Shown here: piece by piece, positions 2,379-31,167 of the stretch
Numbering within the stretch: position 1 is the stretch's first letter
How the letters are laid out: each line of letters begins with the position of its first letter
IMG/VR virus record: IMGVR_UViG_3300044618_000855
Coordinates: 1 to 38,293 of that record
Strand: one strand, 5' to 3'
Length of the DNA: 38,293 bases
DNA from: a virus
Program-made: the position numbers and the translations under genes
The notes under the pieces: model-generated
Database searches by the model: none
Seen by the model: the letters and a program-made list of their open reading frames with translations, nothing else
Told to the model about the DNA's origin: nothing

Positions 2379-3914
2379 ATGGACATCTTCAAGACGCTGT
2401 TGTTGGACACTCCCGTGTCCACGGCAATTAGTGGCACCGTAGCCGTCAATCAAGGTGGCACCGGGGCTACTACTGCCGCCGATGCGCGAGTTAATTTGCT
2501 GCCCTCTTATACGGGTAATGCAAATAAGGTGCTAAGCCTTAACTCTGGGGCAACGGATGTCGAGTGGACTACGAACGGTGCTGGCACCGTAACGAGTGTT
2601 GATCTCACGGCTGGTACGGGCATTAGCGTGTCTGGTGGGCCAATTACTTCCACGGGCAGCATTACCGTAACCAACACGGCTCCAGACCAAACGGTGGTTC
2701 TTACGGCGAGCACGGGCATCTCGACTTCTGGGACTTATCCCAACTTCACGATTACCAATTCTGCGCCAGATCAGACAGTGGTTCTAACGCAGGGCGGCAC
2801 CACCACCATCACGGGAACCTACCCCAACTTTACGATTTCGTCTGCCGATCAATATAAGGGTACGGTAACTAGTGTTGATTTCTCTGGTGGCACTACGGGC
2901 CTAACGGTTTCTGGCAATCCGATTACCAGCAGCGGAACCATCACCCTTGCTGGTACGTTGGCGGTAGCCAATGGCGGCACGGGCCTAACCTCTGGCACGT
3001 CTGGCGGTGTTTTGGCCTTTACGGCAAGCGGCACCCTAGCCTCGTCCAGCGCATTGGCGTCCAATGCCATTGTTGTTGGCGGCGGTGCTGGAGCCGCGCC
3101 ATCCACCATCACTACGGGTACTGGCGTTGTCACCGCTCTAGGGGTCAATACAGGCACGGCTGGCGCGTTTGTGGTTAATGGTGGTGCTTTGGGTACTCCT
3201 AGCTCGGGAACGGTTACCAATCTCACGGGAACGGCCTCTATCAACATCAATGGAACCGTAGGCGCGACCACCGCTAACACGGGCGCGTTTACAACGCTTT
3301 CTGCGTCTAGCACGGTGAGTGGTACGGGTTTTTCTACCTACCTCGCCTCGCCTCCTGCAATCGGCGGTACTGCTCCTGCGGCTGGTAAGTTTACGACCCT
3401 TGAGGCTACGGGTGTTACCACCGTCTCTGCTGGCACCGTTTCGGCCCCAGCTATCACCACTACGGGAGATACCAACACGGGCATCTTCTTCCCGGCGGCT
3501 GACAACATGGCCTTTACGGAGGGTGGTGTAGAAGTCTTTCGTATTGAGTCCAATGGTCGTTTTGGACTTGGACAAACCTCCCCGGCCACCAAGTTTGACC
3601 TGTCTGGCAACTATGGTCAGAATATTGTAGCTGTCGCCGCACTCGACATTGATTGCTCGGCTGGTAACTACTTCACCAAGACGATCAACGCAAACAGCAC
3701 GTTCACGTTTTCAAACGCTCCGGCCTCTCGCTCTTATGCGTTCGCTCTTGAACTGACGCACACGTCAGGCACCGTGACTTGGCCGACCGCTGTGAAGTGG
3801 CCCAAGGATACGGCCCCAACTCTGACCACGGGCAAAACCCACATCTTTATCTTTGTAACTGACGATGGTGGCACACGCTGGCGCGGTGCTGCACTTGTAG
3901 ACTACGTTAACTAA
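2379..3914 (+). CDS. tail fibre protein 1 (repetitive beta fibre)
   Basis: This 511-residue protein is very rich in Thr, Gly, Ser, Val and Ala. It carries repeated motifs such as GTVTSVD, GTYPNFTI, APDQTVVL and ANGGTG, typical of trimeric phage fibre shafts. Near residues 310-350 is a block (FTTLSASSTVSG, STYLASPPAIGG) found twice or more in the second fibre at 7287-8078. A stretch with TTTGDTNTGIFFP and GLGQTSPA is common in aquatic phage fibres. The last about 95 residues, from LDIDCSAGNYFTKTI to WRGAALVDYVN, are a domain almost the same as the end of the second fibre, and probably form the receptor-binding or trimerising tip. Confidence 0.88.
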   Translation: MDIFKTLLLDTPVSTAISGTVAVNQGGTGATTAADARVNLLPSYTGNANKVLSLNSGATDVEWTTNGAGTVTSVDLTAGTGISVSGGPITSTGSITVTNTAPDQTVVLTASTGISTSGTYPNFTITNSAPDQTVVLTQGGTTTITGTYPNFTISSADQYKGTVTSVDFSGGTTGLTVSGNPITSSGTITLAGTLAVANGGTGLTSGTSGGVLAFTASGTLASSSALASNAIVVGGGAGAAPSTITTGTGVVTALGVNTGTAGAFVVNGGALGTPSSGTVTNLTGTASININGTVGATTANTGAFTTLSASSTVSGTGFSTYLASPPAIGGTAPAAGKFTTLEATGVTTVSAGTVSAPAITTTGDTNTGIFFPAADNMAFTEGGVEVFRIESNGRFGLGQTSPATKFDLSGNYGQNIVAVAALDIDCSAGNYFTKTINANSTFTFSNAPASRSYAFALELTHTSGTVTWPTAVKWPKDTAPTLTTGKTHIFIFVTDDGGTRWRGAALVDYVN

Positions 3915-3919
3915 TATCT

Positions 3920-5029
3920 ATGGATCCTAACGTTATCAAACTTGCGATGGGTGCTGGTGGCGCTGGTGAGAAAGAGTATGACCTGTATGCTTGGGGATAT
4001 AACGGACTTGGTCAACTTGGCCTTGACGACACAACCAGCCGTTCATCACCAGTACAAGTCGGTGCATTAACAACATGGGACAAAGTTGCGTCCGGCAGGC
4101 TCCACAGCATAGCGATTAAAACGGATAGGACGTTGTGGATTTGGGGGCTTAACAACTTCGGTCAACTCGGCCTAGGAGATGTAACCGATCGTTCATCTCC
4201 TGTACAAGTTGGAGCGTTAACAACGTGGAACAACGTTGCGGGTGGCTTTAGTCACACAATAGCCACTAAAACCGATGGGACATTGTGGGCTTGGGGGTTT
4301 AACAGCTTAGGTCAACTCGGCCTAGGAGATGTAACCGATCGTTCATCTCCTGTACAGGTTGGAGCGTTAACTACTTGGAGTAAAGTTGCCTGTGGCAAAG
4401 AACACAACATAGCCACTAAGACAGACGGAACATTGTGGGCTTGGGGGTATAATTTTCGCGGTCAACTGGGCTTAGGAAACACAAGCAATCGTTCGTCTCC
4501 GGTACAAGTTGGGGCGTTGACAACATGGAGTAATATTGCGTGTGGTCGCCTTCATACCATAGCCACTAAGACAGACGGAACTTTGTGGGCTTGGGGACGT
4601 AACAACTATGGTCAACTTGGCCGAGGAACCACAGCAGACTATTCATCACCACTTCAAGTTGGTTCGTTAACAACATGGGACAAAGTTGCGTGTGGTCGCT
4701 ACCACACAATAGCCACCCAAACGGACGGCACGTTGTGGGCTTGGGGGCGTAACAACTTCGGCCAACTTGGCCTTGAAGATGTAACCAGTCGTTCGTCTCC
4801 TGTTCAAGTTGGTGCATTAACAACATGGAACAAAGTTCAAAGTGGAGATGCAAACATTATAGCCACTAAAACTGACGGAACATTATGGGGTTGGGGAAGT
4901 AACATCCAAGGCCAACTAGGTATAGGAACTACAACCAATCGTTCGTCTCCTGTTCAAGTTGGTGCATTAACGACTTGGAAAAACATAGCGTGTGGGTACT
5001 CACACACCATCGCCACTACAGAGGAGTAG
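3920..5029 (+). CDS. RCC1-repeat beta-propeller protein (seven blades), putative receptor-binding tip
   Basis: The 369-residue protein has a short Gly-rich start and then seven 50-residue repeats, each with WxWGxNxxGQLG, SSPVQVGALTTW, and GxxHxIATKTDGTL. Seven blades match the usual number in the RCC1 propeller fold. Fold-typical Gly, His and Trp positions are kept in nearly all blades; blade 6 lacks the His (DANIIATK). RCC1 repeats mediate protein or ligand binding and occur sporadically in bacteria and phages. The gene begins five bases after the first fibre and precedes the sulfotransferase fusion. A tail-tip adhesin is the best guess. Its base composition looks more AT-rich than the capsid genes. 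Confidence 0.85.
   Translation: MDPNVIKLAMGAGGAGEKEYDLYAWGYNGLGQLGLDDTTSRSSPVQVGALTTWDKVASGRLHSIAIKTDRTLWIWGLNNFGQLGLGDVTDRSSPVQVGALTTWNNVAGGFSHTIATKTDGTLWAWGFNSLGQLGLGDVTDRSSPVQVGALTTWSKVACGKEHNIATKTDGTLWAWGYNFRGQLGLGNTSNRSSPVQVGALTTWSNIACGRLHTIATKTDGTLWAWGRNNYGQLGRGTTADYSSPLQVGSLTTWDKVACGRYHTIATQTDGTLWAWGRNNFGQLGLEDVTSRSSPVQVGALTTWNKVQSGDANIIATKTDGTLWGWGSNIQGQLGIGTTTNRSSPVQVGALTTWKNIACGYSHTIATTEE
3986..5020 (+). repeat. seven tandem 150-bp coding repeats (RCC1 blades)
   Basis: The period is exactly 150 bases from one Trp codon pair to the next. Some copies are nearly identical at DNA level: the segment from about 4158 to 4222 recurs at about 4308 to 4372 with only a couple of changes, including third-codon positions. 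This indicates recent duplication or gene conversion between blades, and makes blade-number variation by recombination possible. Confidence 0.9.
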
Positions 5030-29145: not shown

Positions 29146-29496
29146 TTAGGCAACGTTGACGGTCATCTCAGCTTCTTGCGCCTTTTTGAGCCACTTCTCA
29201 GCGTTAGCGCGATAGCGTTCCGCCAAAGTGAGTGTCTTAGTTTCGCTGAGCTTGATCCAAGTGCTACGGACGCGCTTATTTTCAACGATTTTCATGTCTC
29301 CAACGAAGCCGCCACGGTTCAGAATCTCTGTCACAAGACCGCAAACCTGAGGAGCTTCCAAAGCTGCCAGCTTGGTTTTCTTTTCTGCACGAGCGGCTTT
29401 AATTTGATCACGATAGACCGTGATTTCGTCACGGGTGAACGAATTGCCGTTATTGACGCGCCAAACGATGTCTTCCTTTTTGAGTACGAGTTGCAT
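29146..29496 (-). CDS. first gene of the early operon, hypothetical
   Basis: This 116-residue protein starts the minus-strand operon. The ATG follows a good ribosome site, AAAGGACAG on the minus strand. The N-terminal part MQLVLKKEDIVWRVNNGNSF and central helix QIKAARAEKKTKLAAL are followed by GFVGDMKIVENKRVRSTWIKL and a helical Lys-rich tail. As the first early gene it may act in host takeover. No family is recognised. Confidence 0.7.
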   Translation of the reverse strand: MQLVLKKEDIVWRVNNGNSFTRDEITVYRDQIKAARAEKKTKLAALEAPQVCGLVTEILNRGGFVGDMKIVENKRVRSTWIKLSETKTLTLAERYRANAEKWLKKAQEAEMTVNVA

Positions 29497-29529
29497 CTGT
29501 CTGTCCTTTCTATGGTTTTGTCAGTTATT

Positions 29530-29990
29530 AGCCGCCATTAATTGGCGTTTAACCCTTGCGCCGCGATAAGGCTCCTGACTTGCAAGGGAACCCAGCTACG
29601 TCCTTTTAACGGTGGACAGCCTGCTGGGGTTAATTGTTAACGGTTTGAAAAACTCTGCTAACGCATACTTTCGACTAGTGCAGATACTAAGCCGAAAGAG
29701 TGCTAATCACTTGCCGTTACTAGCTTGCCAAGCCAATAACTTGCACCAAAAGCAAGTCGGGATCACGTCCCATCGGTTGCAAAAGCCGTCGCCCTGAAGG
29801 CTCGCCCCCATCCCTTAGCATTAACGCTAGCCCGTAGACTAACGCCGAACCGCCGTTTCGTGTGGCTGGTAAGGTAGGACTTCGCCCCGTGTCGCTCGCA
29901 CAAGCGAAGGAGTCCCCTCCGCCTGCAACCGTCGCCGGATAACCCCCCGGCGATGGGATGGACTGTTAAAGAACTGCCGGAGCTACCTCC
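29530..29990. other. hairpin-rich non-coding segment, candidate structured RNA or replication origin
   Basis: No convincing gene exists here. At least seven perfect stems are seen: CGCCA/TGGCG (near 29533-29547); CCCTTGC (29553-29559) with GCAAGGG (29582-29588); AACCCAGC with GCTGGGGTT (29588-29631); CTTTCG plus TAGT with ACTA plus CGAAAG (29668-29698); CTTGC/GCAAG (29741-29756); GACT-TCGC with GCGA-AGG-AGTC (29878-29914); TCGCCGG/CCGGCGA (29932-29953); CGGAG/CTCCG (about 29979-29990). Nesting and spacing resemble large folded phage RNAs. TAACG occurs five times within 29607-29844. Confidence 0.5.
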
Positions 29991-30030
29991 GACATCCACC
30001 ACGATGCACACTCGGGATTGAGTAGCGAGA

Positions 30031-30050
30031 GAAATCGTCAGAAATCGTCA
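30031..30050 (+). repeat. tandem 10-mer direct repeat
   Basis: GAAATCGTCA is repeated twice with no gap. It lies between the hairpin-rich segment and an A-rich stretch (30061-30068). It may be a small iteron or operator pair. Confidence 0.6.
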
Positions 30051-30099
30051 TTTTACCTCTCAAAAAAACTTCAGGTAGCAGCTTGTGGGATACGCAAAA

Positions 30100-30230
30100 C
30101 CAAGCAATCCGCGCCCCCGAATCATCCCCCCTCAGCAGCCCCTCGCCTAAGCCACAAGGAACGGTAAGGAACGCCCCTAGGAGCCACAAGGAAGCCCAAG
30201 CCCAAGCCACCCCTGCCACCCCTGGTGAAA
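30100..30230. other. C-rich, purine-poor intergenic segment with short direct repeats
   Basis: This gene-free stretch has a strongly biased plus strand with few thymines. GCCACAAGGAA occurs at 30151-30161 and 30183-30193, AAGGAACG at 30156-30163 and 30166-30173, and CAAGCC is repeated near 30195-30210. Strand asymmetry of this kind is found at origins and packaging sites, but no definite function can be assigned. Confidence 0.4.
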
Positions 30231-30267
30231 GTGTGCCATTTTGTCACAGCACCATTGGCACGGTATC

Positions 30268-30284
30268 TTGACCCATTTAGTCAA
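30268..30284. promoter_or_regulatory. inverted repeat TTGAC-N7-GTCAA, candidate operator
   Basis: Perfect half-sites TTGAC (30268-30272) and GTCAA (30280-30284) are separated by seven bases. A third copy of the half-site, TTGACC preceded by TC/CT, serves as the possible -35 box before the small terminase gene at 30532. A dimeric HTH regulator such as those encoded in the early operon could bind here. Confidence 0.45.
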
Positions 30285-30319
30285 CTAATCCCAGGCGTCA
30301 GCCGTCTAAATCCTTTACC

Positions 30320-30360
30320 CCACCATCCCAAGCAACAAACCCAACAATGGGAAGTGGTGG
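30320..30360. other. strong 11-bp hairpin in the intergenic region
   Basis: CCACCA plus TCCCA (30320-30330) pair with TGGGA and TGGTGG (30348-30352, 30355-30360), leaving a two-base bulge AG on the 3' side and a 17-base loop. It has no T run, so it is not a typical terminator. It may be part of a folded RNA leader or a DNA site. Confidence 0.55.
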
Positions 30361-30373
30361 ACACACCATTGCC

Positions 30374-30385
30374 ATGCAATTGCAT
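30374..30385. promoter_or_regulatory. 12-bp perfect palindrome
   Basis: ATGCAATTGCAT reads the same on both strands and is followed by a further TGCAAT. The cluster of ATTGCA words suggests a protein-binding site, e.g. for a homodimeric DNA-binding protein. Confidence 0.4.
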
Positions 30386-30447
30386 TGCAATATACAAGCA
30401 ACTCACTTGTTTTGCTAGTGTTAAGCACTTACTTTGCAGCAACCATA

Positions 30448-30463
30448 GGGGGGGAGGGGGGGG
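30448..30463 (+). other. G7-A-G8 tract upstream of the terminase genes
   Basis: Fifteen of sixteen bases are G. It lies 105 bases before the small terminase gene. Such a tract can fold into a G-quadruplex or serve as a recognition element. The exact count of G could be affected by sequencing or assembly error. Confidence 0.6.
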
Positions 30464-30531
30464 CAACACTCGGCTCCGCTGTCGCATATTGATAGGTTAA
30501 ACGACCACTTAAAAAAATTTGCAAATAGGTC

Positions 30532-30559
30532 TTGACCACTACCTAACACTACCTGTAGA
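30532..30559 (+). promoter_or_regulatory. putative sigma-70 type promoter of the late/packaging operon
   Basis: TTGACC (30532-30537), a 16-base spacer, and TGTAGA (30554-30559) stand just before the ATG at 30568. Transcription would start about at the start codon, so the message would be leaderless or nearly so; no ribosome site is seen. An alternative -10 is TAGAAC with an 18-base spacer. Confidence 0.4.
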
Positions 30560-30567
30560 ACGTTTGC

Positions 30568-31167
30568 ATGGGGAGGAAGTCCAAAGCAATTGTGGAGAGC
30601 GTAGGGGAGGCGCAAGCCAACCTCAATCACCGTTATATTGAGAAGCGGAAGCCTAAGGAGGCAGCGTTAGCGTTGGATATGCTGGCTAATGGGGAGACGT
30701 ATGCGAAGGTAATGGAGGAGACGGGTATAGGGTTTGTGGCACTGTCAGCTTTGAGGGCGCGGCATGAGCGTGCTTTGGAGGTGAGGCGCAAGGAGCTTGC
30801 GTTAGACGGCTTTGAGATGGCAGAGAGGATGAGGGCGTTGGTGGCGAAGAAGACAGAGATGTTGATGGAGGATGATGAGGCGTTGATGAAGACGCCGCTT
30901 AAAGACTTAACGTTAAGCTATGGCATTAGTGTGGACAAGGGCTTACAGGCTCTTGGGGAGCAGAAGGTGGTGGTGGAGCACAGGACGGGGAAGCCGTCGC
31001 TTGCTGACGCTATGAAGGCTATTGAAGAGGCTAGGGCGGCTTTACGGAATGACACCATTACAGTACTCACAACCCCTGTTGAGCGAGTGGGACCAGAAGT
31101 TGAAGTGGACGGCGACGATGACGAAGGAGGGGACGATAGAGTGGTGGAGTCCCGAGATCAGGGTTAA
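30568..31167 (+). CDS. terminase small subunit-like DNA-binding protein
   Basis: The 199-residue protein has a basic N-terminus, then AALALDMLANGETYAKVMEETGIGFVAL, a helix-turn-helix like those of small terminases, a helical middle (about 75-120 with KKTEMLMEDDEALM), a segment DKGLQALGEQKVVVEHRTGKP, and a very acidic tail (VDGDDDEGGDD). Small terminases recognise the packaging site and stimulate the large subunit. Being the first gene of the packaging operon, next to the large terminase, supports the call. The sequence upstream may hold its binding site. Confidence 0.78.
   Translation: MGRKSKAIVESVGEAQANLNHRYIEKRKPKEAALALDMLANGETYAKVMEETGIGFVALSALRARHERALEVRRKELALDGFEMAERMRALVAKKTEMLMEDDEALMKTPLKDLTLSYGISVDKGLQALGEQKVVVEHRTGKPSLADAMKAIEEARAALRNDTITVLTTPVERVGPEVEVDGDDDEGGDDRVVESRDQG

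Follow-up and report, generated by a model that had tools for sequence, protein, structure and literature searches.

HDV-like and hammerhead ribozymes are common in phages; most are without a known role, and the trimming of tRNA is the clearest one. HDV-like ribozymes also occur at the 5' ends of retrotransposons, and GOLLD, a structured non-coding RNA, has been found both in lake samples and in phages. The theta ribozymes are HDV-like ribozymes of gut phages that cut at the 3' ends of phage tRNAs; in the corresponding survey, >80% of theta ribozymes were located in gut phages and 526 non-tRNA matches were left without a function (PMC10879173). L1Tc, as cited in that survey, is a retrotransposon with an HDV-like ribozyme at its 5' end (PMC10879173). 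In the haloviruses HF1 and HF2, a hammerhead variant precedes a helicase gene by 13 nt (PMC3088659), and the VIPR vrRNA arrays are phage RNAs with interspersed hammerheads that carry 9–16 YNNGG (GGYNN) tandem repeats (PMC13142463).

The stretch of DNA analysed here (the window; 38,293 nt) is a 38.3-kb virus record, from a lake-type phage, in which a gap of 1071 nt (29497–30567) separates divergent genes starting at 29496 (leftward) and 30568 (rightward). An earlier note on this DNA had described a divergent non-coding gap of ~1.07 kb, and this description holds: the longest ORF reaching into the gap interior encodes 91 aa, and the module sequences of relatives (see below) show indels of 1 nt and 3 nt. 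Rfam at gathering scores gave zero matches in the whole window, and ARAGORN detected no tRNA. The excess of perfect hairpins claimed for the gap disappears when compared with dinucleotide shuffles, as positions 29530–30360 contain 7 perfect stems of at least 5 pairs (6.4 ± 2.5 in shuffles), 2 of at least 6 pairs (1.6 in shuffles) and none of at least 8 pairs. The structure of the gap is real, but imperfect and one-stranded. Folding of 29497–30400 yields z −3.8 for the minus strand and z −1.9 for the plus strand, with the signal restricted to about 29500–29990 and no clear folding signal on either strand within 30000–30400. The proximal half (29517–29990) is a structured RNA cassette on the minus strand only. 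Its key feature, absent from the earlier note, is an HDV-like ribozyme at the 3' end of the RNA.

When the gap region (29400–30700) was scanned permissively against Rfam, a single match was returned, to HDV-F-prausnitzii (RF02682), at 29588–29517 on the minus strand and covering model positions 1–74. This predicted self-cleaving ribozyme (29517–29588) scores 27.8 bits (E 0.0086, calculated across the whole of Rfam), and that of the divergent relative L039 independently scores 26.4 bits (E 0.019); neither reaches the RF02682 gathering score of 44. For the L021 ribozyme, ~90% identical to that of the window, Rfam gave no match at E ≤5. We file the element under the HDV-like fold rather than as a member of RF02682. 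The nested double pseudoknot is complete, consisting on the minus strand of P1 (7 bp; 29588–29582 with 29559–29553), P2 (29579–29575 with 29524–29520), P3 (29572–29570 with 29562–29560, L3 being 29569–29563) and P4 (29547–29543 with 29537–29533). The putative catalytic C is located at 29531 in J4/2, and the predicted cleavage site lies between 29589 and 29588.

Comparison of eight sequences in a hand alignment shows no broken pair in P1, P2, P3 or the 5-bp P4 (a sixth P4 column in this count is A-G and lies outside the helix), while eight pairs vary on both sides, a covariation that depends mainly on the one divergent sequence, L039. The GGC(U/C)AA motif bearing the putative catalytic C is invariant (8/8). 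In P1, CCCUUGC/GCAAGGG of the main group is replaced by CUCCGUU/AACGGAG in L039, with 5 of the 7 pairs changed on both sides, and in P2 paired substitutions convert GUCAG/CUGAC to GCUAG/CUAGC; the L039 J1/2 is 8 nt long, compared to 2 nt otherwise. A candidate P1.1 mini-helix shows, by eye, one pair that covaries between the main group (A-U) and L039 (G-C), and a second pair in some sequences only. An automated count gave 6 double-changed pairs, with 98% of cells paired versus 31–44% when slid, using an alignment (A4) in which the L039 J1/2 is trimmed and the L039 P2' strand is one column off. The covariance model R1 scores its members at 64–101 bits and reaches ≤13 bits elsewhere in 450 kb, but as L039 is included in R1 this separation is not an independent test. 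Our own HDV descriptor scan produced dozens of false positives and missed real ribozymes, and motif and covariance models were therefore used instead; pattern matches in L092, L098 and L099 were judged to be chance and were not retained. We consider the ribozyme fold well supported by sequence comparison, with self-cleavage predicted 5' of P1. Between the end of the ribozyme and the first leftward start codon are 20 nt, which include a Shine-Dalgarno-like AAAGGA (29504–29509, minus strand).

The 5' side of the predicted cut adjoins a hairpin (29591–29628, minus strand; CCCAGC...GCUGGG with inner GUCC/GGAC) followed by UU. This hairpin covaries, with CCCGAC/GUCGGG and GUUC/GAAC found in relatives, and an unrelated 11-bp stem occupies its place in L039. 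In a released RNA, it would form the 3' end. Upstream are, all on the minus strand, a 3' flank of sequence UUCAAACCGUUAACAAUUAAC (29629–29649), identical or nearly so in A and B types except L039; module A itself (29650–29960), marked as structured RNA by its folding z and conservation; and a shared 5' flank (29961–29994) made up of a terminator-like hairpin, UGUCGGAGGUAGCUCCGGCA, then GUUCUUUAACAGUC. Paired changes keep the stem of the terminator-like hairpin in L018. A short leader ORF near 30050 was discarded, as its start or frame is lost (by eye) in L018, L021 and L004, and a promoter scan found no minus-strand site.

Module A is carried by the window and by L001, L002, L004, L006, L018 and L019, while L021, L026, L028 and L039 carry module B. 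For module A, folding together with the hairpin gives z −3.4 and the alignment fold gives z −3.6. Its non-identical members are 93.5–95.8% identical, above the values that these A-type relatives show for the adjacent gene (78–87%) and for the proximal leader (80–86%), and too uniform for a covariation test. Module B contains 113 pairs, with 95.6% of cells paired versus 32–40% when slid, and 25 pairs changed on both sides (0/500 shuffles reach the observed values), counts that rest mainly on L039 versus three close sequences; its alignment fold yields z −9.1 against column shuffles. G-U cells occur in 26 of the 113 pairs and can pair on the minus strand only; hence, the minus strand is the functional strand of module B. 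Global alignments of A to B (z 0.5–2.0) make no convincing case for homology, and the modules have one 10-mer in common, at almost equal offset. The window and L021 differ in module (A versus B), yet their ribozymes are 90% and their first leftward genes 96% identical at the nucleotide level. The two modules are, judging from these sequences, probably alternative forms.

Neither module has a credible match among all Rfam families, GOLLD and ROOL included; low microRNA and SAM_alpha scores in L021 were dismissed because they fell within simple repeats or well short of the cut-off. The GOLLD and ROOL covariance models find nothing at gathering in the window and nothing at E ≤5 in 29400–30700. 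GOLLD and ROOL are, like the modules, structured non-coding RNAs, but are much longer than the ~330-nt module found here. Thus, of the proposal that the gap encodes a large ornate RNA, the giant GOLLD- or ROOL-like version fails on size and on the unmatched covariance models, whereas a structured non-coding RNA, perhaps of a new class, gains support from the strand-specific folding, the covariation of form B and the lack of a credible Rfam match. The check for compensatory changes in related phages suggested alongside it came out positive, both for P1/P2 of the ribozyme and for module B. The modules may represent new RNA classes.

The first leftward gene (29146–29496, minus strand) encodes a 116-aa protein. 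A scan of 2.9 million IMG/VR contigs found the ribozyme motif in 10 contigs besides the window, and the 116-aa gene family in exactly these 10. The ribozyme is kept in L001, L002, L004, L006, L018, L019, L021, L026 and L028 (terS 92–100% identical), while the tenth contig, L039, is too divergent for blastn and was found to have it at the same place by motif search and Rfam. Contigs with terS 95–99% identical can be without both ribozyme and gene, hence the cassette apparently comes and goes as a whole. In all collections searched, it was found only in a small group of phages and always at the same site. The search for nearest phage records by DNA returned none; by terminase, the nearest is phage C75C1 (45%), and a host search found no TerL relatives in GTDB genomes. 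The 116-aa protein has a weak Ribosomal_S8 match below cut-off and an uninformative predicted structure (pLDDT 66, pTM 0.37); among relatives, its N-terminal half is conserved and its C-terminal half occurs in two alternatives. Leftward genes from 29496 include those for a DnaB-like helicase and a PD-(D/E)XK nuclease.

The distal part of the gap (29995–30567) contains a palindrome and a G-run tract. A comparable gap of ~560–660 nt is present in relatives without the cassette (loci inspected), and the extra length in the window corresponds to module plus ribozyme. The near-perfect palindrome ATTGCCATGCAATTGCATTGCAAT at 30368–30391 is a candidate operator or origin site. The plus-strand G-rich run occupies 30449–30464; the minus-strand C-run is kept in relatives, with an insertion there in L002. 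Part of the distal gap is replaced in L021 (4788–4879) by an alternating purine-pyrimidine repeat (GCGCACGCATACGCGC...), and L018 contains a similar stretch. An origin could be located in this distal half.

We propose that cleavage of the leftward transcript by the ribozyme both frees a structured phage RNA, whose 3' end is thereby defined, and creates a new 5' end for the mRNA, a reading we consider probable. The transcript would begin upstream of 29990 and pass through the structured module, the hairpin and the HDV-like ribozyme before the first gene, and the ribozyme would cleave at 29589/29588 as it emerges. Upstream of the cut, this would leave a phage RNA that is structured and no shorter than about 330–400 nt, its 3' end protected and defined by the hairpin and UU and carrying a 2',3'-cyclic phosphate. 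The downstream product would be the operon mRNA, with a 5'-OH followed by the folded ribozyme, the ribosome-binding site and the 116-aa gene. As the module is swapped between A and B while the ribozyme and neighbouring genes stay, we infer that, once transcribed, cleaved and released, the RNA acts on its own, in trans. The sub-gathering RF02682 score, the terminator-like hairpin before the module and the lack of a minus-strand site in the promoter scan count against this explanation. A tentative extension, which we consider less likely than not, is that each module represents a new class of phage RNA acting in trans, A and B being alternative alleles that are swapped within one cassette, are matured by the ribozyme and possibly function with the 116-aa protein.

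The main rival to RNA release is a leader acting only in cis, with the modules tuning ribozyme cleavage or first-gene expression, either as sensors or as folding domains, and the released 5' piece being waste. Such a leader would fit the spacing of 20 nt between the ribozyme and the start of a gene that always co-occurs with it, as well as the terminator-like hairpin of the 5' flank, and the hammerhead variant 13 nt upstream of the HF1/HF2 helicase gene offers a precedent (PMC3088659). However, that unalignable A and B modules precede a near-identical ribozyme and gene is unexpected for a single sensor, and the conservation of module A exceeds that of the gene it would serve; we regard a purely cis-acting leader as rather unlikely. 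An element acting at the DNA level, i.e. a replication origin or packaging site with incidental RNA features, would suit the position between gene blocks that diverge to the left and right, and the palindrome at 30368–30391. It is improbable given that the proximal structure is strand-specific, G-U pairs included, that a ribozyme fold lies within the proximal half and that most relatives with closely related terS do not have the cassette. The proximal half can be explained without an origin or packaging role.

The patchy distribution might also suggest a self-cleaving RNA element, mobile or in decay, that is maintained by transfer and served by its own ribozyme in a manner comparable to the HDV-like ribozymes at retrotransposon 5' ends. 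We consider this highly improbable, as the neighbouring proteins scanned include no reverse transcriptase or integrase and all collections searched place the cassette at a single site in one small phage group. That the locus contains neither a functional ribozyme nor a functional RNA, the resemblance being due to chance, is harder still to credit: the Rfam score is below threshold and perfect hairpins occur at chance frequency, but eight ribozyme pairs vary on both sides with none broken, 10 contigs have the fold at this very position, and module B covaries.

Several cassette-free relatives carry type II hammerheads within the same leftward operon. These score above the RF02276 gathering score in L031 (3205–3266) and L032 (3440–3501; 39.4 bits each) and in L025 (3544–3605), L030 (1281–1342) and L053 (3032–3093; 38.2 bits each), all on the minus strand, while in L036, L037, L038, L044 and L072 they are below gathering or identified by motif only. 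The window contains no RF02276 hammerhead, and no contig was seen with both an HDV-like ribozyme and a hammerhead. The sister-phage hammerheads are located between coding genes and, in the loci read, have no large structured RNA directly upstream; that of L031 immediately precedes a transglycosylase-like gene, in which a signal peptide was recognised by eye. In L038, the gene ending just before the hammerhead (about 3240–4090, minus strand) is, judged by eye, an ArdC-like antirestriction gene. Hammerhead-bearing relatives also contain a repeated structured element of ~65 nt, AUUCAC-CCAACC...GGUUGGC-UGAAUCCUUAGGGGUUC, located between the stop codon of one gene and the start of the next (minus strand; L030 2448, L031 4191, L036 4172 and 3826, L037 2060, L038 4171 and L053 4199), for which Rfam reported nothing in the loci scanned.

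No description of a phage ribozyme ending such a structured non-coding RNA was found in the open-access literature, and the release of a phage RNA by a ribozyme looks, on sequence grounds, like a rare arrangement. HDV-F-prausnitzii (RF02682) has the same P1, P3, P4, L3 and GGCUAA core over the full length of 1–74, but differs in its neighbours and in score (27.8 bits versus gathering 44). The type II hammerheads (RF02276; PMC3088659) are likewise self-cleaving and reside in the leftward operon of related phages, but have another fold and lie between coding genes. As in this locus, ribozymes separate phage RNAs in the VIPR vrRNA arrays (PMC13142463); runs of at least 4 GGYNN repeats are absent from the window and the related loci examined. 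The theta ribozyme appears to be the nearest functional parallel, with the module RNA in the place of the tRNA. Both combine a minimal HDV-like fold, a tailed phage and a (predicted) cut that defines where the RNA upstream of it ends, but the window has no tRNA by ARAGORN, the upstream RNA is instead a ~330-nt module of unfamiliar class, and the phage group is not annotated as gut-derived. Here the ribozyme would separate a structured RNA from an operon, with the form of the RNA swapped and the ribozyme retained, while relatives place another ribozyme class within the same operon. This offers a concrete candidate role for a phage ribozyme: release of a non-coding RNA combined with a reset of the mRNA 5' end.
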